Positions 2,669-35,775 of a DNA stretch of 35,775 nucleotides are shown piece by piece. How positions within the stretch are numbered: the stretch's first letter is position 1; every line of letters starts with the position of its first letter. The stretch spans positions 1-35,775 of the IMG/VR virus record IMGVR_UViG_3300027759_000226, one strand, 5' to 3'. The stretch comes from a virus. Made by a program: the position numbers and the translations under genes. The notes beneath the pieces are model-generated. The model searched no databases, was not told the DNA's origin, and saw only the letters and a program-made list of their open reading frames with translations.

Positions 2669-3394
2669 TCAAGACTTCATGACATACGCCAATGCGTAAT
2701 ATGGTGGCAGATTTGCATTTGTAGCTGACACGCCCTCAGTGGTGTTAGCCACTGTGATGCCAGTAGTTGCTGTGCTGGTATCTGTTGTAGTGTTATTAAC
2801 AAAACACTGGGTGGTACTCCCTGCCTGCGGGGATGTAGCTGTTGCTTTTAAATATGTGTGTTTGTGACCGGGGTCAGTAACCGTTGCCGTGTGCGTGTGG
2901 CTTACTAACACCGCATCTTTTGATCCACCAGTAGCCGCCACAGAATAAGTCGATCCTGCGCCAACCACAAATCTGTCACGCAAATCAGGTGTGCCATTTG
3001 TACCATCGCACAAATACCAGCCTGTTGGAACGCTACCAATTGAGCCATACCACAGCGAAATCATGCCTGTGGGAATGGTCGTGCCTGTGCTTGTACCAGC
3101 AACACCAATGATTCCATAAAGATTGTCATATGTGCCAAGGGTTGTGCCAGTAGATGTTTTGACCACAAACTTATAGTTATAGCCATAGGTCAACCAGACT
3201 TCATTGGGCAAACGACCAGATGAATCCAAAACAATAGGATTTGCATTTGCTACTGTGGCATTAATGTCTGTATAGGTTGCCAGCGCGGTGCTTGAACCAG
3301 CTTGGTATGTGTAAATCAAGCCGCCATTTAATGGCAAACCATTATTGTCAAAGAATTGCTGGGCATTGCCAACAGGTGAAAGATTAACTGCCAT
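2669..3394 (-). CDS. Tail fibre protein with phage tail-collar domain
   Basis: 241 residues. The N-terminal part (about 1-100) has a Gly-rich segment (LPLNGGLIYTYQAGS) often seen at the virion-proximal end of podovirus fibres. At about 110-150 is a tail-collar type motif (MISLWYGSIGSVPTGWYLCDG, then TPDLRDRFVVGAG). A His-rich patch (SHTHTATVTDPGHKHT, about 165-180) resembles metal-coordinating fibre tips. It probably forms part of the host-binding apparatus. It is far from the main fibre cluster (12.2-17.2 kb), so the phage may carry two receptor-binding systems. Confidence 0.8.
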   Translation of the reverse strand: MAVNLSPVGNAQQFFDNNGLPLNGGLIYTYQAGSSTALATYTDINATVANANPIVLDSSGRLPNEVWLTYGYNYKFVVKTSTGTTLGTYDNLYGIIGVAGTSTGTTIPTGMISLWYGSIGSVPTGWYLCDGTNGTPDLRDRFVVGAGSTYSVAATGGSKDAVLVSHTHTATVTDPGHKHTYLKATATSPQAGSTTQCFVNNTTTDTSTATTGITVANTTEGVSATNANLPPYYALAYVMKS

Positions 3395-3403
3395 GATGCG
3401 TCC

Positions 3404-6115
3404 TTATTTGTTCAAATCGTTGAGTTTATTTTGCCCTGATTGTTTACCAAGCGCCTTGGCTTTTTCCATTTCTTTTTCCATTTTTTTCACGGCTTTGGCT
3501 TCTTCTTTTGCGGCTTTTTTAGTTTGCAAATATGCGCCAGCTTCTCTACCTAAAAATCCACCTAATGCAGCTTCTTTAGATAAAGGAGTTTCACCAATAA
3601 CTGCGCCAAGACCTGATCCAATAGTAGCGCCAACAGCAGGATAATTTTTTTCTAGCAAGCTGATACGTCTTGCTTGTTGACCAGCGCCCTCGTATTTCAA
3701 ACCGGGTGTGAATTGCCCCACATAATTTAAAGCATTAAATTTGCGAATTTCGCTGGGCGGGAATGTTTCTAAAATCTTTTCTCCAACAACAGAAGTCAAC
3801 ATATTGTTGACAGCATTTGAATTCCATTCACCCACATTTTTAGCGCCTGCTTTATAAACTTCACGGGCTAATGCGCCATCCATTTCAGCAACAGCAGCGG
3901 CAGCGGCTTGACGTAACTCAGGTGGTACTGGTGGCAAACCCTCTGGCGCACCTCTAACCCGACCATTTGCTAATTCACTAAATGTATCTCGAATGTGTCG
4001 CCATTCATCTTTACGCAAATTATTTAATGATGACAACATTTTTTCTGGGGCAACTTTTGATGTGACATTGCCATTTGCATCCACTTCGCCAAACAATCTT
4101 TTAAATCCAGTTGAACCCAAAATGGTTTTTTCAACTTGATGTATTTTGTCGCCAAGTTTATACATTGCAGGATCAGCCACCGCAGCAATGTCTTTATCAA
4201 TTGCTTGATTAATTGTACGAATTGATTCTGCTTTTTCGGGTGTCCAAACTCTTGGGCTATTAAAAATTTTACGCACTCTATCGTAAGCGGCAACAGAACC
4301 CGGCGCGGCAACTTCGCCATTAGGTAATTTAAAACCAGCAGTTTTTGCTTCATTAATTAAATCTTTAGCCGCATCTAAAAGTTGTGATGTTCCAGCAGCT
4401 TTAAATGTTGCAACTTCTTGAGGATTTACAAATAAATCATCAATGTGGGCTGTATTAATTTTGTTATTTCCCGCATTTTTAAAAGCAGAATTATATGTAT
4501 CTTGTTTAACTTGATTCAAATATCCCGTCAAACTTGATGATGCCAAATCATCAGGATTTTTTCCATACGCTACATCATTTAAAAAATTACCACGTTGTTC
4601 GTCATTGGTAAAAGTTTTTCTTGCGCCAGTAGCGTTTACGCGTTCTTGAGCATAATTGGAAAATCCAACTTGCTCATTGGCAATTTGTTCTTTAAGTTTT
4701 AGACCTAATGGCGATGGTTCAGCCATATTTGCCAAACCATGTTCATTACGCAATAAATTATCATTACCCGTCACAACGCCAGGTCTTGGTTTTAAATCAG
4801 GTAAAACTTCTTGAAAAAGCTGTGACCGTAATTTTTGTTCTTCAATTGGCACATCTTTTGGAATTTTTGTAAGTTTGACTTGTGGAAAAACTGCACCAAT
4901 TCCATTTCCTCTTGCTGTTTCTTCGCCAGTAATCTTTCCAGCAAATGGATTTTGTTCAACGGCGGCAGCGCCTGCACTGCCTGCTGGCGCTTGACGGGCT
5001 TCAAACTGGGCTTGGGCTTGGGCTTTGCTCAGTTCGCCGGGGCGCACAATTTCTAATTCTTTTGCCATTTCGCGCAAAGGTTGAGTAACTTTCGAAACAA
5101 CAGGCGCAACTTCTTTGACAGCTTGCGGTAAGGCAGCAGAACCAATGACAACCATGTTTCTAATGTCAGGCGCAGGAATTCCAGTTTTTTCTGAAATCTG
5201 CTCTGGGGTCATGCCCAACACATTAAACATTTTGTTGATCTGTTCGGCAATAGGTTGAGTAATGCCCCCCAATGGTTGTTTATATGTTTCTTTTTGAGTA
5301 ATGCCTGCGGCTTTGCCAACAGGTTGACTAACTGCGGCGGCGGCAGTTTGTCCTGTTTGTTCTGCTTGTTCTGGGGTTTGGGCGGTTCTTGCAAATGCTT
5401 GCGTCACTGCGCCATAGGTTGCAGGCACAACACCATAAAGAGTATCAACAGCGCCAGCAGCCCTTTCGCCCAATTCTTTACGGGCTTCAAAACCTTGTTT
5501 CAATACATTACCAACAATCTGGCGCACTTTGCTAACAGGTTGTCGTCTAGGAACATAAGCCCCCATTGTTCCCTCTTGGGTGCTTGTGGTGCTTTCAACT
5601 TGTGGCGCTTCGGCTGGTGCTTGGCTTACAGTTTGACTTGGCGCTGGTTTGCCAGACAAGAATGCTTCCAAAGGATCAGCAGCAGTTTCAACAGGCGCTG
5701 TTGGCGTAGCTGGTTGCGTAGTTGGTGCGGCAACAGACGCTTGACCTTGTTTGACTTTGTTTATATAGCCTGATGGGTCTTTAGTAACAAACCCACCATA
5801 TTGCGCCAACGCTTTATTTACATCGCCTTTATTGCGATCAACCAATTGACCAAGGTATGTTCTAGCCGCTTCACGGGCTTGTTTTTCATTGAACGGATTA
5901 AATTCAATACCTTGCTTATGCAGCATTTGCACAGTCTCTGGCATGAATTGATACGGCCCCATAGCCTTGGTATCTTTGTTCAGTGCAAACTTATCTTTGC
6001 CGCTTTCGACCTTACGCAGACTGTCCAACAATTCATCAGTGACCACTGACACATTCTTTGGTTGCGGTGGAGATGCAACCGCACTGCCACCCAAAAATTG
6101 TTCTAAGGCATCCAT
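3404..6115 (-). CDS. Large ejection (internal virion) protein with N-terminal lytic transglycosylase domain
   Basis: 903 residues. The N-terminal region (about 26-110) reads as an SLT-type transglycosylase: E37 in KVESG is the likely catalytic acid, then AMGPYQFMPET (51-61) and an AQYGG segment near 104-108. Such domains open the peptidoglycan locally during DNA entry. A Pro/Ala/Thr/Gln-rich linker follows (about 115-200), then a long, mostly helical body and a very Lys/Ala-rich C-terminus (about 870-903). It adjoins two other probable ejection proteins, as in P22-like gene order. The middle is AT-richer than most of the genome. Confidence 0.8.
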   Translation of the reverse strand: MDALEQFLGGSAVASPPQPKNVSVVTDELLDSLRKVESGKDKFALNKDTKAMGPYQFMPETVQMLHKQGIEFNPFNEKQAREAARTYLGQLVDRNKGDVNKALAQYGGFVTKDPSGYINKVKQGQASVAAPTTQPATPTAPVETAADPLEAFLSGKPAPSQTVSQAPAEAPQVESTTSTQEGTMGAYVPRRQPVSKVRQIVGNVLKQGFEARKELGERAAGAVDTLYGVVPATYGAVTQAFARTAQTPEQAEQTGQTAAAAVSQPVGKAAGITQKETYKQPLGGITQPIAEQINKMFNVLGMTPEQISEKTGIPAPDIRNMVVIGSAALPQAVKEVAPVVSKVTQPLREMAKELEIVRPGELSKAQAQAQFEARQAPAGSAGAAAVEQNPFAGKITGEETARGNGIGAVFPQVKLTKIPKDVPIEEQKLRSQLFQEVLPDLKPRPGVVTGNDNLLRNEHGLANMAEPSPLGLKLKEQIANEQVGFSNYAQERVNATGARKTFTNDEQRGNFLNDVAYGKNPDDLASSSLTGYLNQVKQDTYNSAFKNAGNNKINTAHIDDLFVNPQEVATFKAAGTSQLLDAAKDLINEAKTAGFKLPNGEVAAPGSVAAYDRVRKIFNSPRVWTPEKAESIRTINQAIDKDIAAVADPAMYKLGDKIHQVEKTILGSTGFKRLFGEVDANGNVTSKVAPEKMLSSLNNLRKDEWRHIRDTFSELANGRVRGAPEGLPPVPPELRQAAAAAVAEMDGALAREVYKAGAKNVGEWNSNAVNNMLTSVVGEKILETFPPSEIRKFNALNYVGQFTPGLKYEGAGQQARRISLLEKNYPAVGATIGSGLGAVIGETPLSKEAALGGFLGREAGAYLQTKKAAKEEAKAVKKMEKEMEKAKALGKQSGQNKLNDLNK

Positions 6116-7693
6116 TTAGAAATCCTCGGAAGTAAGTGGTTCTGCTGGCACACCTGTTGCCGCCATGCTTTTCAAATTTTTGTATTGTTTAAGAATAGTC
6201 TTGCGTTTCTTTTCTGATGGAAAAAGTTCTTTAAATTTGTTTTGCATTTTGGTTGGATCAGATTCTGTTTCCAAAATGTTCATGGCTTCAAAAATTTTGG
6301 TATCTCTGGCGTTTGCGTTCCATGCTTGCTGGAATGCTTTCATGTTGTTGTCGCCATATTGTTGACCAAACTTTTGTGCGCCGCTGGCTTGCATATCAAG
6401 GTTTCTTTGATCTGCTTGCACTCTACGAGCAATTTTGACCAACACATCAGGCGGCACTTTAATTGTGCCATTTGCCACCGCAGCCATATCCAAGCCTGCA
6501 ACAGTACCGCCAACAGAACCCATTGCTTTGGAATTTGTAATAGCCATATTTGCCAAGTCTTTGGCAAGCATATCGTATTGATCGCTTCCAATTGCCATGC
6601 GAATTTTTTGTTCAACTTTGCCAGCAACGCCACCCTTTTCAAAATATAACTGATCGCCAATTTTGTTGGCTTGGTTGATAACTTCATCAACATTTCGGCG
6701 ACCTTGGGCTAAGTTAGCTTGGGCATTAACCAAATTGTTTCTGTATTCAAAACCAGAATTTTGGTCTTTTTCTTCAGTAGGTTGTGGTGTGTAGGGTTGG
6801 TCTGCTCGTCTGGTGGGATAGGGCAAACGCACACCGGGCGCGACCTCCGACCCTGCCCCTCCAGTTGTAGTGCCAACGGCTGGGGTTTGTGGTTGCAAAC
6901 CTTGTGGCACACCAACCTCAACAATTGGTTTTCCACCAGTAACACTAGGCGTAGTTGTTATGACGCGCCCTTGGGCATCCAATGCAGCTTTAGTGCCAAA
7001 TTGAGTTTGTTGTTGCTCTGGGGTCATCAAAGTTGCCGCGCCTGCAATTGCCTGTTTAGGCAAGTCAGGGCCTGACTGCATTGAGTTAGTCCAAGTGGTT
7101 TTGTAAGCATCAAGAAGTCTATGTAAATCAGAATTTTCTGGATTTTCTTGCTTCATCAAATCCATTTCAGCAATGTAAGCATTTTTGTCTTGAACGCCCA
7201 ATCTTCCCAAAACAGCAAATCTTTGCCCGATCATTGCTCGTTGATCTCTAGTCAGGTTTTGTTTGGCATCAATAGCTTGCGTTTGTGCTTGTCCTAATGT
7301 GGTGTATTTGTTTATATATTCAGAACCAGTTAAAGGCGCAATTTTCGGAACTTGGGCATTAATCTTGTCTAAATCAATTCGACCATTGGTTTGAAAGTTG
7401 TTTGGATCAGCAAAGAACGTTTGCATATTTTTACGTTCAATGTCTTTTTGTTCATCAACGCCTAAAGCAATTTGACCTGTTCGCGCTTCTTGCCCTGCTT
7501 TTTGCAACAACACAGGATTCATCTGCCGTGCTTGTTCAACAGCTTGTTGGTACTGTTGAACTTGCAAAGGATTGATTTGTTGTGCTTGCTGATATGCTTG
7601 TGCGCTATTTGCAAGGTTAACCATGTCACCAAGTGACATAGCTTGTGGCGGCTTTATGTTTTGTGCAACAGGGGTGACTGAGAAATCTGCCAT
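6116..7693 (-). CDS. Probable ejection / internal virion protein
   Basis: 525 residues, Gln- and Ala-rich, largely helical, with no membrane segment. The N-terminal 60 residues are unusually rich in Gln (QAYQQAQQINPLQVQQYQQA). A Pro/Gly/Thr-rich linker lies around 265-315, and the C-terminal half is helical and basic near the end. It lies between the 903-residue transglycosylase ejection protein and the 242-residue protein, one base from the former. Position and composition fit an internal protein delivered with the DNA. Direct homology to a P22 protein cannot be stated from sequence alone. Confidence 0.65.
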   Translation of the reverse strand: MADFSVTPVAQNIKPPQAMSLGDMVNLANSAQAYQQAQQINPLQVQQYQQAVEQARQMNPVLLQKAGQEARTGQIALGVDEQKDIERKNMQTFFADPNNFQTNGRIDLDKINAQVPKIAPLTGSEYINKYTTLGQAQTQAIDAKQNLTRDQRAMIGQRFAVLGRLGVQDKNAYIAEMDLMKQENPENSDLHRLLDAYKTTWTNSMQSGPDLPKQAIAGAATLMTPEQQQTQFGTKAALDAQGRVITTTPSVTGGKPIVEVGVPQGLQPQTPAVGTTTGGAGSEVAPGVRLPYPTRRADQPYTPQPTEEKDQNSGFEYRNNLVNAQANLAQGRRNVDEVINQANKIGDQLYFEKGGVAGKVEQKIRMAIGSDQYDMLAKDLANMAITNSKAMGSVGGTVAGLDMAAVANGTIKVPPDVLVKIARRVQADQRNLDMQASGAQKFGQQYGDNNMKAFQQAWNANARDTKIFEAMNILETESDPTKMQNKFKELFPSEKKRKTILKQYKNLKSMAATGVPAEPLTSEDF

Positions 7694-7702
7694 TTTTTTT
7701 CC

Positions 7703-8431
7703 TTATGCCACGTTGTAAGGAATATTACCCATTGGCACAGGTGTTCCATATCCCGCAGGGGTTTGCATTCCAGTTTGTGGGCGTAATAAATTACTCATCA
7801 TATATGCGTTACCAGCGCCTTGAAAACCGCCAGACAAAGCATTTGCCGCACCAATTTGACCGCCTGCCATTGCATTTCCTGCACCAATTGTTGCTTGACC
7901 AATGTTGCCAGCAGTGTTTTGTGCAAGATTTGAAACTTGTCCTTGGGCAGTTTGACCAATGCCAGCAATGCCTGCCAATGTGTTGTAGATACGTGTTTTT
8001 TGAGATTGGTCGCGACTAAAAGCATTTCCAAATTCTTGGCTTGCTGCACCCTGACCATAATTTATTAAACCTTGCAAAGCATTACCGCCAATCAATCCAC
8101 CAGACTGATTCGCCAGATTTGTGGTTGCTAGATTACCTTGGGCAAGTCTGAAGTTGTAACTAGGATCAATGTTTGCTTGAAAATCTTCCTGACCAAATTG
8201 TTTGGTCAAATAAGGTTGCATTTTGGAAATGTCGCTTAACGCACTGTAACCAGCTTCTCGATATGGTGCTTGTTGTGCATTTTGAATGTCAAACATTCTT
8301 TGCTGCTGGGCAATAGCTTCTCTTGCGGATGCGGCTTGTGTGTTTGCGGCGCTTTTGGCGGCATTTGCGCCCATAACACCGCCAAGAATACTGCCGCCAG
8401 CCATAATTGCTGATGCTGCAATCCAAGTCAT
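7703..8431 (-). CDS. Probable DNA-transfer / ejection protein
   Basis: 242 residues. The N-terminus (about 5-28) is hydrophobic and Gly/Ala-rich, followed by an Ala/Gln-rich helix (AANTQAASAREAIAQQQRMF) ending near PYREAG. This arrangement is common in podovirus DNA-transfer proteins encoded next to the ejection proteins. The rest is rich in Gly, Ala, Asn and Gln with repeated GN/GA pairs. It is the first of three adjacent genes in the same direction that probably form the injected protein set. Confidence 0.65.
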   Translation of the reverse strand: MTWIAASAIMAGGSILGGVMGANAAKSAANTQAASAREAIAQQQRMFDIQNAQQAPYREAGYSALSDISKMQPYLTKQFGQEDFQANIDPSYNFRLAQGNLATTNLANQSGGLIGGNALQGLINYGQGAASQEFGNAFSRDQSQKTRIYNTLAGIAGIGQTAQGQVSNLAQNTAGNIGQATIGAGNAMAGGQIGAANALSGGFQGAGNAYMMSNLLRPQTGMQTPAGYGTPVPMGNIPYNVA

Positions 8432-8432
8432 A

Positions 8433-8876
8433 TTATTCCCCTTTAATTTCCAGCGTTTTCAATTTATTTGAAGAATCAAACAACGCAAGTTCATCTGGTT
8501 CAATCAATTCTTTTTCCAATTTGTCCAAGTCGGTTTCACTGCTGTTGTGGAACGTGATACCAATGGCATCAGTTACCGCCAGCGTCACCCGCTTTGTGCC
8601 GGGCTTGCTCTGCACAATATCCCCCGCATACAGGTGTTTCATGCCGCCCTCAGTCCATGCGATTATTTCACCTTTGGCGCATAAAAAGAAGTGGTCTTTC
8701 TTATGTACCTTGCCAACAATCAGCGCCCCAGCGGGTCTGTAAACCTTTCTGGCATACATCCCAGCATGGAAATAGTGTTCTGTCTCCAACTCAGCCTGCG
8801 GCATCTTTGCCACTTCCGTTTGCAATCTTTCAATCTGCTCACGGGTTGGCACACCAGTTGGAATTAAATCATTCAT
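8433..8876 (-). CDS. Cupin-like virion-associated protein
   Basis: 147 residues with a central beta-rich segment (HFFLCAKGEIIAWTEGG, then YAGDIVQSKPGTKR, ending AIGITFHNSS). This matches the small cupin-like proteins often found between tail accessory and ejection genes in podoviruses. It lacks the full His-rich metal motif of enzymatic cupins, so a structural or chaperone role is more likely. The start overlaps the stop of the upstream gene. Confidence 0.6.
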   Translation of the reverse strand: MNDLIPTGVPTREQIERLQTEVAKMPQAELETEHYFHAGMYARKVYRPAGALIVGKVHKKDHFFLCAKGEIIAWTEGGMKHLYAGDIVQSKPGTKRVTLAVTDAIGITFHNSSETDLDKLEKELIEPDELALFDSSNKLKTLEIKGE

Positions 8877-13012: not shown

Positions 13013-13819
13013 TTATCTGAAAATCATTACATTGTTATAAGTGCTATCTGTAACAGTTCCACCATAACGACCAACTAAAAACCTAAATGCAGAAGTTGTG
13101 TAAGTGGTTGCTGTTCCACCAATCGCATCTGTTTTAACAACAATTACCTGTGAACCTGAGTCTGTACTAGCAAAACCATTAGTTCCTCCAGAAAAAGAAT
13201 AATTTGTATCAGGCATTGCAGTCGAAAAGTTTAGTGTGTAATCACCAACACCATTGTCCGTAATACTAGAAACATTTCCGCTGGCACGAATAGCTGGAGT
13301 ACCTGTGCCGTTGAAGTTAATCCAAGCACGACAGCCATATGCTGTAGCAACAGAGCCGTAACCTGAGTTGAATTTAAACAGGCCAGCCGAATCAAAACGA
13401 CCCACTTCTGTAGCATTTGTTCCAAAAATAAGTGGAGTGGCTGTGTCTGTTTTTAAGGTTGTAGATGTTCCAATTTGAGTTTCAAGAACAGCATATCTTG
13501 TGGCTAAACTAAGGTCTGAATAAAATCCAAGGCCGCAGTAATTTCCTGCGGAATTAAAAAGGTATGAATTAGTGCCACGGGCATCTGAGTATGACAAAGA
13601 GCCATTTACTGACAATTTGTAACTTGGAGAAGCAGTACCAATCCCCACATTACCAGAGCTATCAACACGCATCCTTTCACTGCCACCTGTGGACACGCCA
13701 ACAGTATCAGCGGCTGGGTAAAACACTCCAGTGTTGGTATCGCTTCCTTGAACAGCAGGAGTTCCAGCAGAGCCGTCTACCCCTGAAATTCCTGTTGTGC
13801 CGTTGATGATTACAGTCAT
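13013..13819 (-). CDS. Tail fibre protein with duplicated-type C-terminal domain
   Basis: 268 residues. An N-terminal fibre repeat region includes SSGNVGIGTASPSYKLSVNG, a motif widespread in aquatic phage fibres. The C-terminal domain (about 155-268) contains RAWINFNGTGTPAIRASGNV, SITDNGVGDYTLNF and TAMPDTNYS. The same domain closes the next fibre gene (13828-14484), so the two are paralogous at their distal, probably receptor-binding, ends. Gly/Ser/Thr-rich throughout, no signal peptide. Confidence 0.75.
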   Translation of the reverse strand: MTVIINGTTGISGVDGSAGTPAVQGSDTNTGVFYPAADTVGVSTGGSERMRVDSSGNVGIGTASPSYKLSVNGSLSYSDARGTNSYLFNSAGNYCGLGFYSDLSLATRYAVLETQIGTSTTLKTDTATPLIFGTNATEVGRFDSAGLFKFNSGYGSVATAYGCRAWINFNGTGTPAIRASGNVSSITDNGVGDYTLNFSTAMPDTNYSFSGGTNGFASTDSGSQVIVVKTDAIGGTATTYTTSAFRFLVGRYGGTVTDSTYNNVMIFR

Positions 13820-13827
13820 GGTTGTCC

Positions 13828-14484
13828 TTATCTAAAAACTGCTATGTAGGCGTATGTTGGATCAAACTGGGTTGAACCAAAAACTTTACAATTAGTTCTC
13901 CATGCAGATGTTGTTGGCGCAGTTGAAGAATTAACCATAGAAGTTCCATCACCTGTTCCATTTGTTCCAACCCCAACAGGAGAATAAGATGTATCAGACA
14001 TTGCGGTTGTAAAGTTGACTGTGTAATCACCTGTACCATTATCAGTAATGCTTGTTACATTGCCACTTGAGCGAATTGCCACAGTACCTGTGCCGTTAAA
14101 GTTAACCCAAGCTCTAGCCATATAAAGAGGTGCAGAGCCTGACACAGTTGCAACTTGTGCTGAATTAATCGTTGGTGTTGTTAGTGTTGGTGAAGTACCT
14201 AAAACATTTGCACCAGAACCAGTAGAAGTTGTTACACCAGTACCACCATTAGCAACAGGAAGTGTTCCAGTGACATTGGTTGTTAAATTTGCAAAAGTGG
14301 TTGATGTAGTGCCAGTTCCACCAGACGCAATAGGCAAAGCATTTGCCAAAGTAACAACTTGAGCAGAGCTAATTGTCACCGCAGTCGTAGGAGTAGCACC
14401 TGTTTGAAGAACAAGTGCGCCTGTTGTGTCCGCAGTAACTGTGTATGCGGTAGTGCTTGTGGTTGATGCGCTGATCGTACTCAT
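13828..14484 (-). CDS. Tail fibre protein, paralogue of the adjacent fibre
   Basis: 218 residues. A Thr/Ala-rich N-terminus (TTGALVLQTGATPTTAVTISS) is followed by a Gly/Thr fibre shaft. The C-terminal domain (about 117-218) reads RAWVNFNGTGTVAIRSSGNV, SITDNGTGDYTVNF, TAMSDTSYS and ends in AYIAVFR. The neighbour ends in VMIFR with the same internal motifs. The start overlaps the stop of the 774-residue fibre gene. The pair suggests duplication and divergence of a receptor-binding tip. Confidence 0.75.
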   Translation of the reverse strand: MSTISASTTSTTAYTVTADTTGALVLQTGATPTTAVTISSAQVVTLANALPIASGGTGTTSTTFANLTTNVTGTLPVANGGTGVTTSTGSGANVLGTSPTLTTPTINSAQVATVSGSAPLYMARAWVNFNGTGTVAIRSSGNVTSITDNGTGDYTVNFTTAMSDTSYSPVGVGTNGTGDGTSMVNSSTAPTTSAWRTNCKVFGSTQFDPTYAYIAVFR

Positions 14485-25462: not shown

Positions 25463-25822
25463 TTATTTAAGAAAACGCAGTTTGTACAGGGTTGAATTGA
25501 TCAAGTCGGCGATTTCATCCACCAAATTTTGCAATTCAGAGTCTTGCGGTAGTTCCTTGCGGGATTCTTCCACAAAATCTTTCATGTTTTCCAGATATTT
25601 CACAGGGTCTTTTTCTGTATGAAATTCATCAGGAAATTTTTCAAGCTGATCATATTTGCCCATGTACGCTTCGGCAAATTCGTCAACCAAGTCAATAATT
25701 TGAACATAGTATTCCCCTAATGCAACGTGCTTTGCATAGCTGGTAGTTGACCAGTGCATGAAATGCGTCACCGTACTGCTGTGCAATAAGTGCGCTACGA
25801 ATTCGGCTACTTCTTCATTCAT
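25463..25822 (-). CDS. Helical phage protein of unknown function, possible ferritin-like fold
   Basis: 119 residues from ATG 25822. A longer frame would start inside the terminator and is rejected. The sequence is all-helical (MNEEVAEFVAHLLHSSTVTH, WSTTSYAKHVALGEYY, then IIDLVDEFAEAYM) with His and Glu residues spaced as in Dps or ferritin-like proteins. It may belong to the phage family DUF5856. There is no Shine-Dalgarno. The -10 promoter element ends 6 bases before the ATG, so translation may be leaderless. It is the first gene after the terminator at 25837-25863. Confidence 0.65.
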   Translation of the reverse strand: MNEEVAEFVAHLLHSSTVTHFMHWSTTSYAKHVALGEYYVQIIDLVDEFAEAYMGKYDQLEKFPDEFHTEKDPVKYLENMKDFVEESRKELPQDSELQNLVDEIADLINSTLYKLRFLK

Positions 25823-25828
25823 GGCTGG

Positions 25829-25837
25829 AATATACCA
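25829..25837 (-). promoter_or_regulatory. Extended -10 promoter at the start of the morphogenesis region
   Basis: On the minus strand TGG-TATATT forms an extended -10 element directly after the terminator T run. There is no good -35, as is usual for extended -10 promoters. The expected start site falls on or next to the ATG at 25822, which would make the message leaderless. Confidence 0.45.
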
Positions 25838-25863
25838 AAAAAAAGGGGGGCGCAACACCCCCC
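25837..25863 (-). terminator. Strong Rho-independent terminator
   Basis: On the minus strand six G and six C flank a 7-base loop and are followed by eight T. It ends the leftward early/modification unit just after the DUF1364-like gene and before the head assembly genes. Transcription beyond it needs readthrough, antitermination or the extended -10 promoter next to it. Confidence 0.9.
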
Positions 25864-25873
25864 ATAAAGGCAA

Positions 25874-26200: not shown

Positions 26201-26655
26201 GTCAAATGCACAACCCTATGATTGTTTGATCTTATGTAATCGCTGGTCTTTTGCAGCATTCGTTCATATTCTGACCGACTGATGCTTGTTCGCTGTAAGT
26301 CATGGAGTTGGTAAAGTTCCTTAACAAACCTGATGCCAGTGCCTGTTAAGCCCATTTTGCGGGTTTTTTCATAGCGATGGGCGGCGGCTTCCATTTCTTT
26401 TTGGACTATTTCGCAGATTTCCAGCACTTCCACGCCAATTCCGTTGGATGCCATAGTTTCCGCAATGTTCATCATGTCCACAATTGAACGCCAATCAGCA
26501 ACCGTTCCATTACCCTTGACAAGGCTTTCAATGGCACTTAACTCAATCAGGCGCAATCTGTCCAACAGGTTATCTTGCGTAACCGCCGCACCAACTATGG
26601 CGTGTTCTATGGGGTTGACCTTTGACCAAATCTTTCTGCGGCACTGTTTTCTCAT
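26197..26655 (-). CDS. Conserved-type phage hypothetical protein, 152 aa
   Basis: Begins MRKQCRRKIWSKVNPIEHAI and is almost fully helical. The segment RLIELSAIESLVKGNGTVAD and WRSIVDMMNIAETMASNGIG resembles a protein often seen in proteobacterial phages next to recombination and DUF1364 genes. Its biochemical role is not known. ATGA overlaps on both sides place it in the same message as the transporter and nuclease genes. Confidence 0.65.
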   Translation of the reverse strand: MRKQCRRKIWSKVNPIEHAIVGAAVTQDNLLDRLRLIELSAIESLVKGNGTVADWRSIVDMMNIAETMASNGIGVEVLEICEIVQKEMEAAAHRYEKTRKMGLTGTGIRFVKELYQLHDLQRTSISRSEYERMLQKTSDYIRSNNHRVVHLT

Positions 26656-27146
26656 TGGTGCGCCCTATGTGGAATTTTGGTTAAAAGAAATGACCAAATA
26701 CCACCGCCAAACATTTTGGCAACAAACTGCAACGCAACAATCTCAAGCATTAATCCACCAAATGCTATGGTGGGAAATGTAATGGAATCAACCGCAGCGC
26801 CAGCAATATTTGACCCATTTGATCGAATCATCCACGATTTATTCCGCAAATAATGATAAACAATGGTATCGGCAGTCATTGCAAGGGCAAATGCCACCAA
26901 TGATGCCAAAGCAATTGACCCCGCTGCTGGGTTTAGCAAATAAGAAACAACACTAGCCACAACAATCAATCCACCCATTTTCGGCAAAAGTTTATCGTTT
27001 TGCCATTGTTCATGCAATTTATCCCGCAATGACAAATCCAACCCTATCAACACAAAGGCGTTTATTGGGCTAAACCAAGGGCCAAGCCATGCCACCAATA
27101 AATTGGCAATAACAAGGGCGGCAATGTAAATAATTGGATAAATCAT
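26652..27146 (-). CDS. VUT/YhhQ-type transporter, probably for preQ0 or a related 7-deazaguanine
   Basis: 164 residues from ATG 27146, with AGGAAG at good spacing. The ATG overlaps the stop of the DpdA-like gene. Five or six hydrophobic helices are visible (about 2-19, 22-37, 58-80, 83-103, 130-155). Polar landmarks include GLDLSLRDKLHEQWQ and SMIRSNGSNIAGAAVDS, fitting the VUT family whose member YhhQ imports preQ0/preQ1. It should sit in the host inner membrane and raise the pool of modified-base precursor. The pairing with a DpdA-like enzyme supports this substrate; that part is inference. Confidence 0.75.
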   Translation of the reverse strand: MIYPIIYIAALVIANLLVAWLGPWFSPINAFVLIGLDLSLRDKLHEQWQNDKLLPKMGGLIVVASVVSYLLNPAAGSIALASLVAFALAMTADTIVYHYLRNKSWMIRSNGSNIAGAAVDSITFPTIAFGGLMLEIVALQFVAKMFGGGIWSFLLTKIPHRAHQ

Positions 27147-27823
27147 ATTAAAACTTCCTGTAATGGTTTTGTTTCCCAAAGTGGGGGTGGGTTGGTTGAA
27201 TCAATTCGTTTTGCCATACATCCAGCACATTGCAATTGCCCGGAATGATTGACAGCTACATTTGTTGAATCGGCGCTGGCTAAAGGCCAAGGGCCAGCAG
27301 ATTGACCCAACATTCTCATGCCATGCACCCAAGGAATTTGCCGCCCATAAGTTTTTACAAGGGCATTAAAGGCTTCGTCCATGCGTCCACACCATTTGGA
27401 TGTGCCAATTTGCCAATATTCACCGGCTGACCCAAAACATACTCGTCCCCATTGGTCACATAATTCAATTAAATAACTGATAGGTAAACCTAAATGCCAA
27501 ACTGGTATGCCTAATTCTTTGCGAAAAGGCCATGTTTTGGTCATTTCACGCTGTTGATCTATTGTTCCGTCAATTACATCTGGCACAACCGCCCAGTGCG
27601 GATGCCTCAGCAAAGGTTCAATCCATTCATAAAACCCGTCAATGTCAAACACCAAGCCACGGGTTTTGGCACTGAATGCCCCGTTATCCAACATCAAAGA
27701 TTGCCCTATCCGCAAACATCTTTGCAAATCATCTGGTCTAGCATAGGAAACGCAAAAATGTTTGCCACCCATTGTTTCTATAGCTTTCATGGGTGATATT
27801 GGTGTGCCGTGGTAATGAATCAC
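27143..27823 (-). CDS. DpdA-like DNA guanine transglycosylase (7-deazaguanine insertion)
   Basis: 226 residues related to queuine tRNA-guanine transglycosylases. LMLDNGAFS (43-51) resembles the TGT DSGGY/F motif with D46 as the acid/base. VPDVID (80-85), VWHLGLP (108-114) and FGSAGEY (130-136) fit the barrel and base-binding motifs. ASADSTNVA (182-190) places D185 as the candidate nucleophile. QCAGC (198-202) could be part of a zinc site. DpdA enzymes exchange guanine in phage DNA for preQ0-type bases and protect against restriction. It overlaps the transporter gene downstream and the coiled-coil gene upstream. The subfamily (DpdA2-like by size) is uncertain. Confidence 0.72.
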   Translation of the reverse strand: MIHYHGTPISPMKAIETMGGKHFCVSYARPDDLQRCLRIGQSLMLDNGAFSAKTRGLVFDIDGFYEWIEPLLRHPHWAVVPDVIDGTIDQQREMTKTWPFRKELGIPVWHLGLPISYLIELCDQWGRVCFGSAGEYWQIGTSKWCGRMDEAFNALVKTYGRQIPWVHGMRMLGQSAGPWPLASADSTNVAVNHSGQLQCAGCMAKRIDSTNPPPLWETKPLQEVLI

Positions 27824-28149
27824 TGGTGCGCCCTGTCTTGCATTCTGTTAGTGGCTTCACGGGTACGCCAAATTTCCACTTCCAATCGGTAGCTTTCCAG
27901 TTCCCACCGCAAAGTTTCTTCTTTTTCCACCGCAACGGCTAACCCTTGAATCAGTTTTTGATACTCAGGGCTTGAATATGCTTCCCGTTCTTGGTGGCTG
28001 GCGGCATCAATCCCGTTAAGCAGTGCGTCCCGCATCAGTATGGCTTTCTTAGATTTGCGGAATTCCTCAAGGTAAACCCGCTGGGCTTTGGCTTCGCCAT
28101 ATTGGGGCGCTTTATCCCTGATGGCTTGTGTAGCTTTTTCTGGTTTCAT
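27820..28149 (-). CDS. Helical phage protein, 109 aa, unknown function
   Basis: Starts MKPEKATQAIRDKAPQYGEA, with AAGGTG upstream. The segments AKAQRVYLEEFRKSKKAILM and SHQEREAYSSPEYQKLIQGL recur in a group of phage proteins lying in recombination loci. It is wholly helical and charged. It lies between the PP-loop gene and the DpdA-like gene and is coupled to the latter by ATGA. It may be a DNA-binding or adaptor protein; no motif shows this. Confidence 0.65.
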   Translation of the reverse strand: MKPEKATQAIRDKAPQYGEAKAQRVYLEEFRKSKKAILMRDALLNGIDAASHQEREAYSSPEYQKLIQGLAVAVEKEETLRWELESYRLEVEIWRTREATNRMQDRAHQ

Positions 28150-28158
28150 TTTTGCACC

Positions 28159-28974
28159 TTAAATTTGACACCAAGAACATTCGGAATTGCTTTCTTCTTC
28201 TTCTAAGGTAAACAAATCATCATCTAACAAAGCACGGACATTTCTTGTTGGGTGAATCTTTATCATCTTTCTTGGATTTTTGTCAGCAATAAATTTTTCT
28301 TCAATCTCAATTAATTTTTTTATGTTTTCCCGACCGATAGGGTCTTTGGCAGCCCTTTCCCATTCTGAATTTGCCGCAAGTAGACATGGATAACACCCAA
28401 CCCGTTTATGACCTTTGCTATAAAGAGGATTTATAGGTGCGCCAACTTTGTTTAAATCGTCAAAAACTTCTTTTTCAAGATAATCAACTATTGGCAAACG
28501 AATTTTCACATTGGCAAAAATTTTGTTTTTGTATTCAGTAGAAAAATCTTGCAAAGTTATTTCAATATCTTCATTCCAACCACCGTACTTAGTGCCTCTG
28601 GCGCGACTTTCGTCTTTACGCATACCCATCCAAATAATGTGTGTCCCGTCACAATAATTGTTGTCAATTAACCATTTTGCAAAAGGTTGTTGTTTAAGTC
28701 TGCTTGTGCAAGACTTAGCCACACTGCTTGGAAAATAACCAACTTTTTCAACAAAATCAAAAACATCTTTGTATTTTTCTGATTTAGTCATATGAATTTT
28801 GATGCCATAAAAATTTTCTATGTCAATCAAATGTTTGTCGGTTAAAGGATGGTCATATCCTGTGCTTTGGTGAACAGCAACAACTTTTTCTGCACCATGT
28901 TCTTCAAGTGCCATTTGCAAACAAAGTTGACTATCTTTGCCACCACTTACTGGAACAATAATTTTTCCACTCAT
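28159..28974 (-). CDS. PP-loop ATP pyrophosphatase, PAPS reductase (CysH)/DndC-like
   Basis: 271 residues. The ATP-binding SGGKDS loop is at 10-15. SCTSRLKQQP (88-97), GMRKDESRAR (117-126) and GCYPC (193-197) are the usual landmarks of phage PAPS-reductase-like proteins. The final CSWC (266-269) adds two cysteines that, with GCYPC, could hold an iron-sulfur cluster. Family members activate substrates by adenylation for reduction or sulfur transfer. The substrate here is unknown and could be a nucleobase. The gene is visibly AT-richer than its neighbours, which suggests separate acquisition. It overlaps the VRR-NUC gene by ATGA. Confidence 0.8.
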   Translation of the reverse strand: MSGKIIVPVSGGKDSQLCLQMALEEHGAEKVVAVHQSTGYDHPLTDKHLIDIENFYGIKIHMTKSEKYKDVFDFVEKVGYFPSSVAKSCTSRLKQQPFAKWLIDNNYCDGTHIIWMGMRKDESRARGTKYGGWNEDIEITLQDFSTEYKNKIFANVKIRLPIVDYLEKEVFDDLNKVGAPINPLYSKGHKRVGCYPCLLAANSEWERAAKDPIGRENIKKLIEIEEKFIADKNPRKMIKIHPTRNVRALLDDDLFTLEEEESNSECSWCQI

Positions 28975-29520: not shown

Positions 29521-29527
29521 GGTTCAT
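29255..29527 (-). CDS. Small hypothetical protein, 90 aa, in overlapping frame
   Basis: ATG 29527 overlaps the methyltransferase stop (ATGA), with GAGGAA 5 bases upstream. Its TGA overlaps the VRR-NUC start (ATGA). These junctions are what translational coupling would give. The first part (RKIANSILARLKDGEEFSLA, then TVRRSLEITGD) looks like a helical domain. The second part is Gly-rich and less convincing, and it uses many GGA, CGA and AGA codons. A second frame covers almost the same bases. Confidence 0.5.
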   Translation of the reverse strand: MNHEHRKIANSILARLKDGEEFSLATVRRSLEITGDLAPIGSAGLVAEIQEESQGGGEIGSLRMVAENLIRLSEKAWAENCGRFAKADER

Positions 29528-30903
29528 GCCATTTCCTCAAATTTTTGGATTCTTTCACCAATCCAACGCATCACAGGCACTGCCATGCTATTGCCAAGGG
29601 CTTTGTATCGAGGGCCATCAGGTGTTGGTTTGCCTTTTGATTGAATGTCAGTGTAATTATCAGGAAAACCTTGTAAGCGTTCGCATTCAATTGGAGTTAA
29701 TCTACGCACCGCCATAGCCTGCATAACTGTTGGGCCACTTGCATTGACTGAACTGCCGGGCGTTCCCATAGTAGCCGCCACATCACCAGTAATGTTGCCG
29801 TTATATAAGTCTGTGCCTATTGGCTGCACTAATACATTTTCGCCACCATTGTTTCTGCCTTGTGCAAATGCAATATCTGATACGCATGGGTCTTGTGTGC
29901 CATGAACAATTTTTGGTTGTGCCACTTGCTGGTCTTGGATTGTGCTGAGGGTGAATGCCACATCATCTGATCCAAGGTAACCTTTGCCGCCACCTTTACA
30001 CCCACCGCGCACTTTGAATGCATGCGCTACTGCGTGTTGATCACCTTTGGTTAAAGTGAATGAAACATCTTCAGTTACACCTATTCCATTTGGCCCAGCA
30101 TTGTCAGAACGACCAATCATGTTGCCTTGAATTCCATAAGATGGTTGCGTTAAAAAAGTTTCACTACCGCCACCTAAAACGCCACCAGATGCCTTAATTG
30201 TTCCACCTACATTTGCTTGTTGATATTGGGCAAAACCAGATTCGTAAAAACCTTTTGCTCTTGATGTTACGCATTCTTCGTGGTTGTTACGACTGATGCC
30301 AAAGCGTGCTGCAATTGTTCCGGCAACTTCTTCCCTCTTTTCTCTGCGCGGCGCAGGATTCCCTGACAAGCTGTGGCGCTCAAAAAGAACCGCTGCGGCA
30401 GGTCGCCAATCTCCAAGGTATCCGACAACGAACACACGGCGGCGGCGCTGTGCCACTCCAAAGTATTGAGCGTCAAGAACTCGGTAGGCAAACCCATACC
30501 CGAGTTCGCCCATCCCTCGAAGTAATGAGGCAAAGTCGAGTCCTCCGTTACTGGATAACACGCCGGGGACGTTCTCCCAGACCAACCATCTGGGCCTATG
30601 TTCGCGAGCAATGGCAAGATAGGTAAGCATGAGGTTGCCACGTGGGTCATCCAATCCCTTTCTGAGTCCTGCGACTGAGAATGATTGGCAGGGAGTTCCT
30701 CCAACAAGAAGATCGACATTTGTTCCAAGATTCCACTCCTTAAATTTTGTCATGTCGCCAACATTTGGCGTGTTTGGGTAATGATGTGCAAGCACCTCAG
30801 ATGGAAATTTTTCAATTTCAGAATATGCCACAGCTTCCCAACCAAGCGGATGCCATGCAACTGTTGCGGCTTCAATGCCAGAACAGACACTGAGATATTT
30901 CAT
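29524..30903 (-). CDS. C5-cytosine DNA methyltransferase
   Basis: 459 residues with all main motifs in order: I (YLSVCSGIEAAT), IV (GGTPCQSFS, catalytic C72), VI (WENVPG), VIII (VAQRRRRVFVVG), IX (RRLTPIECERLQGFPDNY) and X (ALGNSMAVP). The stretch between VIII and IX is long (about 180-395), Gly/Gln-rich, and must hold the target recognition domain. No cognate endonuclease is next to it, so it is an orphan phage methylase. It probably masks host restriction sites. It is coupled to the DUF1376 gene upstream. The recognised site cannot be read from sequence. Confidence 0.9.
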   Translation of the reverse strand: MKYLSVCSGIEAATVAWHPLGWEAVAYSEIEKFPSEVLAHHYPNTPNVGDMTKFKEWNLGTNVDLLVGGTPCQSFSVAGLRKGLDDPRGNLMLTYLAIAREHRPRWLVWENVPGVLSSNGGLDFASLLRGMGELGYGFAYRVLDAQYFGVAQRRRRVFVVGYLGDWRPAAAVLFERHSLSGNPAPRREKREEVAGTIAARFGISRNNHEECVTSRAKGFYESGFAQYQQANVGGTIKASGGVLGGGSETFLTQPSYGIQGNMIGRSDNAGPNGIGVTEDVSFTLTKGDQHAVAHAFKVRGGCKGGGKGYLGSDDVAFTLSTIQDQQVAQPKIVHGTQDPCVSDIAFAQGRNNGGENVLVQPIGTDLYNGNITGDVAATMGTPGSSVNASGPTVMQAMAVRRLTPIECERLQGFPDNYTDIQSKGKPTPDGPRYKALGNSMAVPVMRWIGERIQKFEEMA

Positions 30904-35443: not shown

Positions 35444-35775
35444 CACAAAATGAAATCTATGAGATGGCTAACCAAGCAGGGATTGAAAGTGACTGGAGTT
35501 TTGATTTTAAATTGCGTCTTGAAGCCTTTGCCAAACTGGTAGCCGCCAAAGCCATTGCAGAGTTGGAAAACCAAGAACGTAACTTTTGCCCACGATGCGG
35601 CAAACGCACAAAATACATTCACACTTGCACACCACCACAGCGCATAGAGCAAGAGCCTGTAACGTGGCGCAATGCGGCGATTCGTGTTGGTGAAGATTTA
35701 TGTTCTGTTGGGCCTATTGGCTATTACGACATGACCGCAAATCAATGGCTTGATTGGGCGCTTAGTGTTGTGACA
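35440..35775 (+). CDS. N-terminal part of junction-spanning phage protein
   Basis: ATG 35440 overlaps the previous stop. The N-terminus is MTQNEIYEMANQAGIESDWS, followed by a helix (EAFAKLVAAKAIAELENQ) and a Cys motif: CPRCG then HTC, which could hold zinc. The frame runs off the window, but because the last 126 bases equal 8-133 it continues to TGA 269-271, giving 157 residues in all. Many proteobacterial phages carry proteins with this beginning, often in several copies. Function unknown. Confidence 0.75.
   Translation, partial: MTQNEIYEMANQAGIESDWSFDFKLRLEAFAKLVAAKAIAELENQERNFCPRCGKRTKYIHTCTPPQRIEQEPVTWRNAAIRVGEDLCSVGPIGYYDMTANQWLDWALSVVT
35650..35775. repeat. Right copy of terminal direct repeat
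   Basis: Identical over 126 bases to 8-133. It ends exactly at the window edge. The unique circular length implied is 35642 bases. Confidence 0.9.

Follow-up and report, generated by a model that had tools for sequence, protein, structure and literature searches.

A pair of overlapping genes in the virus record IMGVR_UViG_3300027759_000226 is best explained as a two-gene salvage cassette, in which a VUT/YhhQ-family membrane protein would import a 7-deazaguanine and a DpdA-like transglycosylase would insert it, a reading to which we assign a probability of roughly 0.72. The whole record, 35,775 bases, was analyzed and is referred to here as the window. A direct repeat of 126 bp at its ends (8-133 = 35650-35775) closes the record, which carries a large terminase gene together with P22-like portal and coat genes, in line with the P22-like assignment made in an earlier, sequence-only reading of this DNA. 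Among named phages, Xanthomonas phage PBR31 and Rhodoferax phage P26218, the latter from freshwater, are some of the nearest portal relatives, from which it may be guessed that the host is a freshwater beta- or gammaproteobacterium.

The sequence-only reading had described a 226-aa TGT-like protein with DNGAFS and ASADST motifs, encoded on the minus strand by a gene whose stop overlaps the start of a VUT gene, and both open reading frames were recovered with these features and at the same positions (Table 1). The pair is real and not a product of chance, given its matches to PHROG 887 and PF02592, the approximately 80 close homologues in viral contigs, and purifying selection on both genes. 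In sequence pairs with unsaturated dS, dN/dS is about 0.05-0.1 (DpdA) and 0.08-0.25 (VUT).

Table 1. Coordinates of the gene pair, its overlap, and the adjoining upstream gene
Feature	Coordinates	Strand	Description
dpdA-like gene	27143..27823	-	GTG start, 226 aa; short TGT-fold form, without C-terminal zinc domain; predicted guanine/7-deazaguanine DNA transglycosylase
VUT/YhhQ-family putative transporter gene	26652..27146	-	ATG start, 164 aa; six helices predicted; ECF S-component-like fold
ATGA start/stop overlap, dpdA stop and transporter gene start	27143..27146	-	read from sequence
109-aa gene, no assigned function	27820..28149	-	stop overlaps dpdA start; no PHROGs family match

An alternative VUT start, the TTG at 27179, would give a protein of 175 aa (26652-27179) and a 37-base overlap with dpdA. 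The ATG at 27146 appears the likelier start because it overlaps the TGA stop of dpdA, and translation of the two genes is probably coupled through the resulting ATGA. The same kind of overlap joins the GTG start of dpdA to the stop of the 109-aa gene and, at the other end, VUT to the gene downstream of it. As the 109-aa gene adjoins DpdA in about ten close relatives, it is a possible but not a constant DpdA neighbor. A gene for a DUF5856 / PHROG 858 'starvation-inducible transcriptional regulator' (25463-25873, minus strand) also recurs near DpdA in related contigs. Elsewhere in the window, a direct repeat of 132 nt is present twice (13196-13327 and 13981-14112, 79% identity), in the neighboring genes 13013-13819 and 13828-14484, a pattern suggestive of domain duplication.

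Structure prediction supports a TGT/DpdA fold for the DpdA-like protein, as the sequence-only reading had proposed. The protein matches PHROG 887, 'queuine tRNA-ribosyltransferase' (E=5.5e-50), and its AlphaFold model (mean pLDDT 95) retains a (beta/alpha)8 barrel of eight strands. When the model was re-aligned to solved structures with VIA, the best 50 matches listed were all of the TGT fold, with Z-scores of 13.6-14.5 over about 200 aligned residues, among them Cap10 (9ntn; 14.5), an archaeosine TGT (1iq8; 14.1), and Zymomonas TGT (about 13.7). Foldseek alone was not decisive against solved structures, placing other TIM barrels on top with weak E-values; among predicted viral structures, the protein matches phage queuine transferases. 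A sequence search of solved structures returned nothing for it, and no Pfam or NCBIfam family was matched at E up to 1, PF01702, the canonical bacterial TGT family, included.

In an alignment of 75 sequences, G6, D46, D82, H110, and G131 are invariant and D185 is kept in more than 90%, with D46 lying within DNGAFS and D185 within ASADST. By strand order, D46, D82, and D185 would be equivalent to TGT residues D102, D156, and D280; strand order is used here because a profile comparison with host TGTs in hhalign gave no alignment, for which thin profiles were probably limiting. Judged by its sequence, the protein is not a canonical TGT, because the C-terminal CxCxxC...H zinc site present in most host TGTs examined is missing; it ends at 226 aa and has a single CxxC near residue 200, which is unconserved in relatives. 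Identity to the DpdA proteins of phages with measured DNA is 38% for MED16 (over the alignment), 33% for 7-11, and 21% for CAjan, the last of which shares D46, H110, and D185 with the window protein.

The transporter gene product is assigned from profile matches to the VUT/YhhQ family (COG1738, PF02592) and not to the curated precursor-transporter equivalog. It scores 53.2 bits against PF02592 (Vut_1), above the cut-off of 27.2, whereas TIGR00697, 'queuosine precursor transporter', gives E=1.3e-9 and 38.2 bits, under the curated cut-off of 50.95, and PRK11212 gives 26.9 bits, under a cut-off of 252. CAjan encodes a putative preQ0 transporter to which it is also homologous (E=9e-8). Its AlphaFold model has six helices over 164 aa (pLDDT 94) and supersedes a hydropathy count, which gave four helices for this protein and five to six for relatives. 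Each of the best twelve structure matches is to a membrane component from an ECF transporter for vitamins or metals. The first is the ECF S-component 5edl at Z 12.0, a match that is supportive of the fold and not proof of it, as middling Z-scores arise by chance among helical bundles. A sequence search of solved structures gave only noise for this protein. The call of a VUT/YhhQ-like membrane protein, previously made from the letters alone, is borne out by these family and fold matches.

Genes for making the precursor are missing from the record, as had also been claimed for queC, queD, queE, and folE. HMM searches of the whole record found no QueD, FolE type I, QueF, or radical SAM protein/QueE, and the QueC model produced only a sub-threshold, 59-residue match inside a PAPS-reductase-like gene (28159-28974, minus strand). 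This gene was considered as a hidden QueC and rejected, its match to PF01507 having E=7.8e-20 and its QueC match being below the cut-off; from sequence its product is best described as an N-type pyrophosphatase/PAPS-reductase relative that weakly resembles SspD, BrxP, and DndC. Near-identical copies of it stand beside DpdA in only one contig, of the same virus. No Rfam match to a PreQ1 riboswitch was found within the window.

When these assignments are placed into the context of infection, it can be hypothesized that the VUT/YhhQ-family protein would be placed in the host inner membrane and would bring in a 7-deazaguanine as the free base, with preQ0 the likeliest candidate and preQ1 or a close relative possible, and that the DpdA-family enzyme would swap guanine in phage DNA for the imported base through a TGT-type base exchange. 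Having no precursor synthesis of its own, the phage would draw on the host pool and add to that pool by import, and the benefit would probably be evasion of some host nucleases, with a level of modification that may be low. In favor of this reading, YhhQ of Escherichia coli is required for salvage of both preQ0 and preQ1 (PMC5372724), and deletion of dpdA in CAjan abolishes dPreQ0. Of the salvage proposal in the sequence-only reading, the two families, the missing synthesis genes, and the link between the genes (90 of 110 relatives, the tree, and reciprocal linkage, all described below) stand, and import, the identity of the base, DNA in place of RNA as the substrate, and the benefit are what we infer from them. 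Several observations count against salvage. The transporter scores under the cut-offs of the curated precursor-transporter models, phage Orion, which encodes DpdA alone and whose host is unable to make the precursor, shows zero modification (PMC6884629), and some relatives of the window pair (the L069, L078, and L104 records) have neither VUT nor synthesis genes, which implies that import is dispensable.

It had further been proposed that the imported base masks guanines, and here the nearest measured relatives do not support the claim. In Pantoea phage MED16, which has a DpdA of the window protein's family and no synthesis genes, dADG makes up about 0.13% of G, and most tested enzymes still cut the phage DNA (PMC8306585); in Salmonella phage 7-11, dADG amounts to about 0.02% of G (PMC6884629). 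By analogy with these phages, heavy masking of guanine is not supported. A large C5-cytosine DNA methyltransferase gene is also present in the window (29524-30903, minus strand; PF00145, E=4.9e-57), and the phage may thus carry a second DNA modification.

A few relatives without VUT have synthesis genes in the corresponding position beside DpdA. Locus L152 has the order QueD-DpdA-QueE, with QueE above the TIGR04508 cut-off; L156 has DpdA-QueD, above the TIGR03367 cut-off; and Caulobacter phage DMCA has QueD-DpdA, by a weak match. In L149 (6942-8684), VUT, QueC, and DpdA follow in a row, the QueC match (TIGR00364, E=1.9e-39) being slightly under the cut-off. With four loci, the alternation between making and importing the precursor is a pattern and not a rule. 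QueC is missing in 3 of 6 bacterial genomes with VUT-linked loci compared with 2 of 38 others (Fisher p=0.013), in a comparison of 44 bacterial genomes with a relative on a contig that involves few loci and partly draft MAGs and is limited by contig assignment and MAG completeness.

It is also conceivable, although rather unlikely, that the genes cooperate but that the imported base is one other than preQ0, with preQ1, queuine, CDG, or ADG being inserted directly or after further change. YhhQ relatives can prefer other bases (PMC11570991), substrates differ among members of the VUT family (PMC11570991; PMC5372724), and the phage transporter scores below the YhhQ cut-off. It is dADG and not dPreQ0 that is present in MED16 and 7-11, and the placement in L149 of QueC, an enzyme acting on CDG, between the VUT and DpdA genes raises the question of whether the QueC substrate could be the imported base there. 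L149 is, however, a single case, and dPreQ0 or its products are found in most measured DpdA phages (PMC6884629).

A second alternative, which we regard as improbable, would have the TGT-like enzyme act on RNA, such that the pair raises queuosine-type tRNA modification of host or phage during infection and aids translation. This would agree with the TGT fold of the enzyme and with the presence of tgt in the bacterial genomes tested, by which the precursor would feed tRNA too, and the same has been proposed by Hutinet et al. (2019) for phages with synthesis genes and without DpdA (PMC6884629). Yet the enzyme is without both the zinc motif and the C-terminal part of host TGTs, phages carrying its relatives have dADG in their DNA, and no tRNA genes were found in the window.

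The salvage reading draws further strength from the distribution of the two genes across relatives. In 90 of 110 distinct IMG/VR relatives, a VUT gene lies within 1 kb of DpdA and on the same strand, with a negative gap in 81; as this viral census was seeded with the window DpdA-like protein, near relatives are over-sampled in the linkage rates. Because the iterated VUT profile in its initial round gave weak overlapping hits in other frames, the count is limited to E below 1e-20. Linkage was likewise seen in 6 of 9 named phage records, but of the 63 loci on bacterial contigs only 5 show it. Terminase, portal, and other neighbors vary widely around the pair while VUT remains adjacent to DpdA. 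On the DpdA tree, the presence of VUT switches at least 16 times, its type 24 times, and its position upstream or downstream of DpdA 5 times, numbers to be read with the many weak branches of this tree in mind, since fewer changes are forced by the well-supported branches alone. As VUT presence, type, and side change repeatedly on this tree, the DpdA-VUT link was re-formed. On one 12.7-kb viral contig (IMGVR_UViG_3300020044_005604), two DpdA-VUT pairs are found on opposite strands (7332-8524, plus; 2968-4193, minus), and their DpdA copies seem to belong to different clades of the family.

The reciprocal search, starting from VUT, gave a similar picture, with a DpdA-type gene or Q genes adjoining VUT in every annotated phage lineage inspected except the mEp013 group. 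VUT adjoins DpdA in AB3P2, Opt-719, LHE71, Lg3, RCIP0319, ECO111, PEAT2, Flyfo, Phc, RHph_N3_2, RHph_X2_30, and Pam5, is paired with a different DpdA family in phiLM21, and adjoins Q genes in Vibrio 2.275. In Escherichia phage mEp013 (2408-3681), VUT has no recognized DpdA within 2.5 kb on either side and overlaps a DNA methyltransferase gene (PHROG 757). Taken together, gene order supports a functional link between dpdA and VUT. That two functionally untied accessory genes merely share a common cargo region is very improbable: the phage is gene dense, overlapping genes are its rule, other neighbors overlap too, and VUT is missing in some relatives, but VUT stays beside DpdA across unrelated phage backbones while other neighbors change, its side and type have changed repeatedly on the tree, and the link is reciprocal and, in phiLM21, extends to a different DpdA family.

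Related phages commonly carry the pair, which is of a general kind already known, and the suggestion in the sequence-only reading that it is unusual in a small P22-like phage without synthesis genes is not supported. Phages with DpdA and without synthesis genes were already the largest class in 2019, with 76 members for which host supply or uptake was suggested, and YhhQ was found in some phages, uncorrelated with any phage group (PMC6884629); the same pair occurs in Pam5, with a 39.5-kb genome, and in many viral contigs. In the literature examined, we found no earlier quantification of the near-constant coupling of DpdA and VUT in phages unable to make the base. The source of the base in DpdA phages without synthesis genes was left open by Hutinet et al., and the clade of short DpdA proteins does show a correlation with YhhQ-type genes, the transporter being the usual partner and the link being re-formed repeatedly.

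It could be speculated, tentatively, that the pair is a mobile cassette for import and insertion that has been re-assembled many times, through which freshwater phages would place a base taken up from their surroundings into their own DNA. Modification would then depend on release by neighboring microbes, and related phages would switch between importing the precursor (VUT) and making it in part (QueD, QueE, QueC). If so, protection of a phage against some host nucleases could hinge on a scavenged community metabolite. Salvage-fed DNA modification is now directly testable in cultured phages that have the pair, namely PEAT2, Phc, AB3P2, RHph_N3_2, and Pam5.

Among known systems, about 9% of bacterial dpd islands have a YhhQ transporter in addition to DpdA (GATOR-GC, PMC11888242), and the islands carry dpdB, often dpdC, and restriction genes, of which none was noticed in the window. 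The Seuratvirus-type phages CAjan (Escherichia) and EC151 (Enterobacter; PMC8310023) resemble the window in that a single gene region holds both DpdA and a putative preQ0 transporter; they differ in encoding the full folE-queD-queE-queC pathway, and the CAjan DpdA is longer and 21% identical. The singleton-DpdA phages (group 3 of Hutinet et al. 2019, PMC6884629; 7-11 and MED16) have the same short DpdA family, at 33-38% identity, and no preQ0 synthesis genes. Both 7-11 and MED16 have dADG in their DNA and no VUT beside DpdA, whereas in the window the transporter gene overlaps dpdA. No QueC, QueD, FolE-I, or QueF was found in Pectobacterium phage PEAT2, Pseudanabaena phage Pam5, Rhizobium phage RHph_N3_2, or Enterobacter phage Phc. 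In these four and in Acinetobacter phage AB3P2, a DpdA-family gene adjoins VUT as it does in the window, although the five belong to other phage lineages, their DpdA proteins are 32-45% identical to the window protein where aligned, and in PEAT2 and Phc, unlike the window, VUT lies upstream of DpdA.
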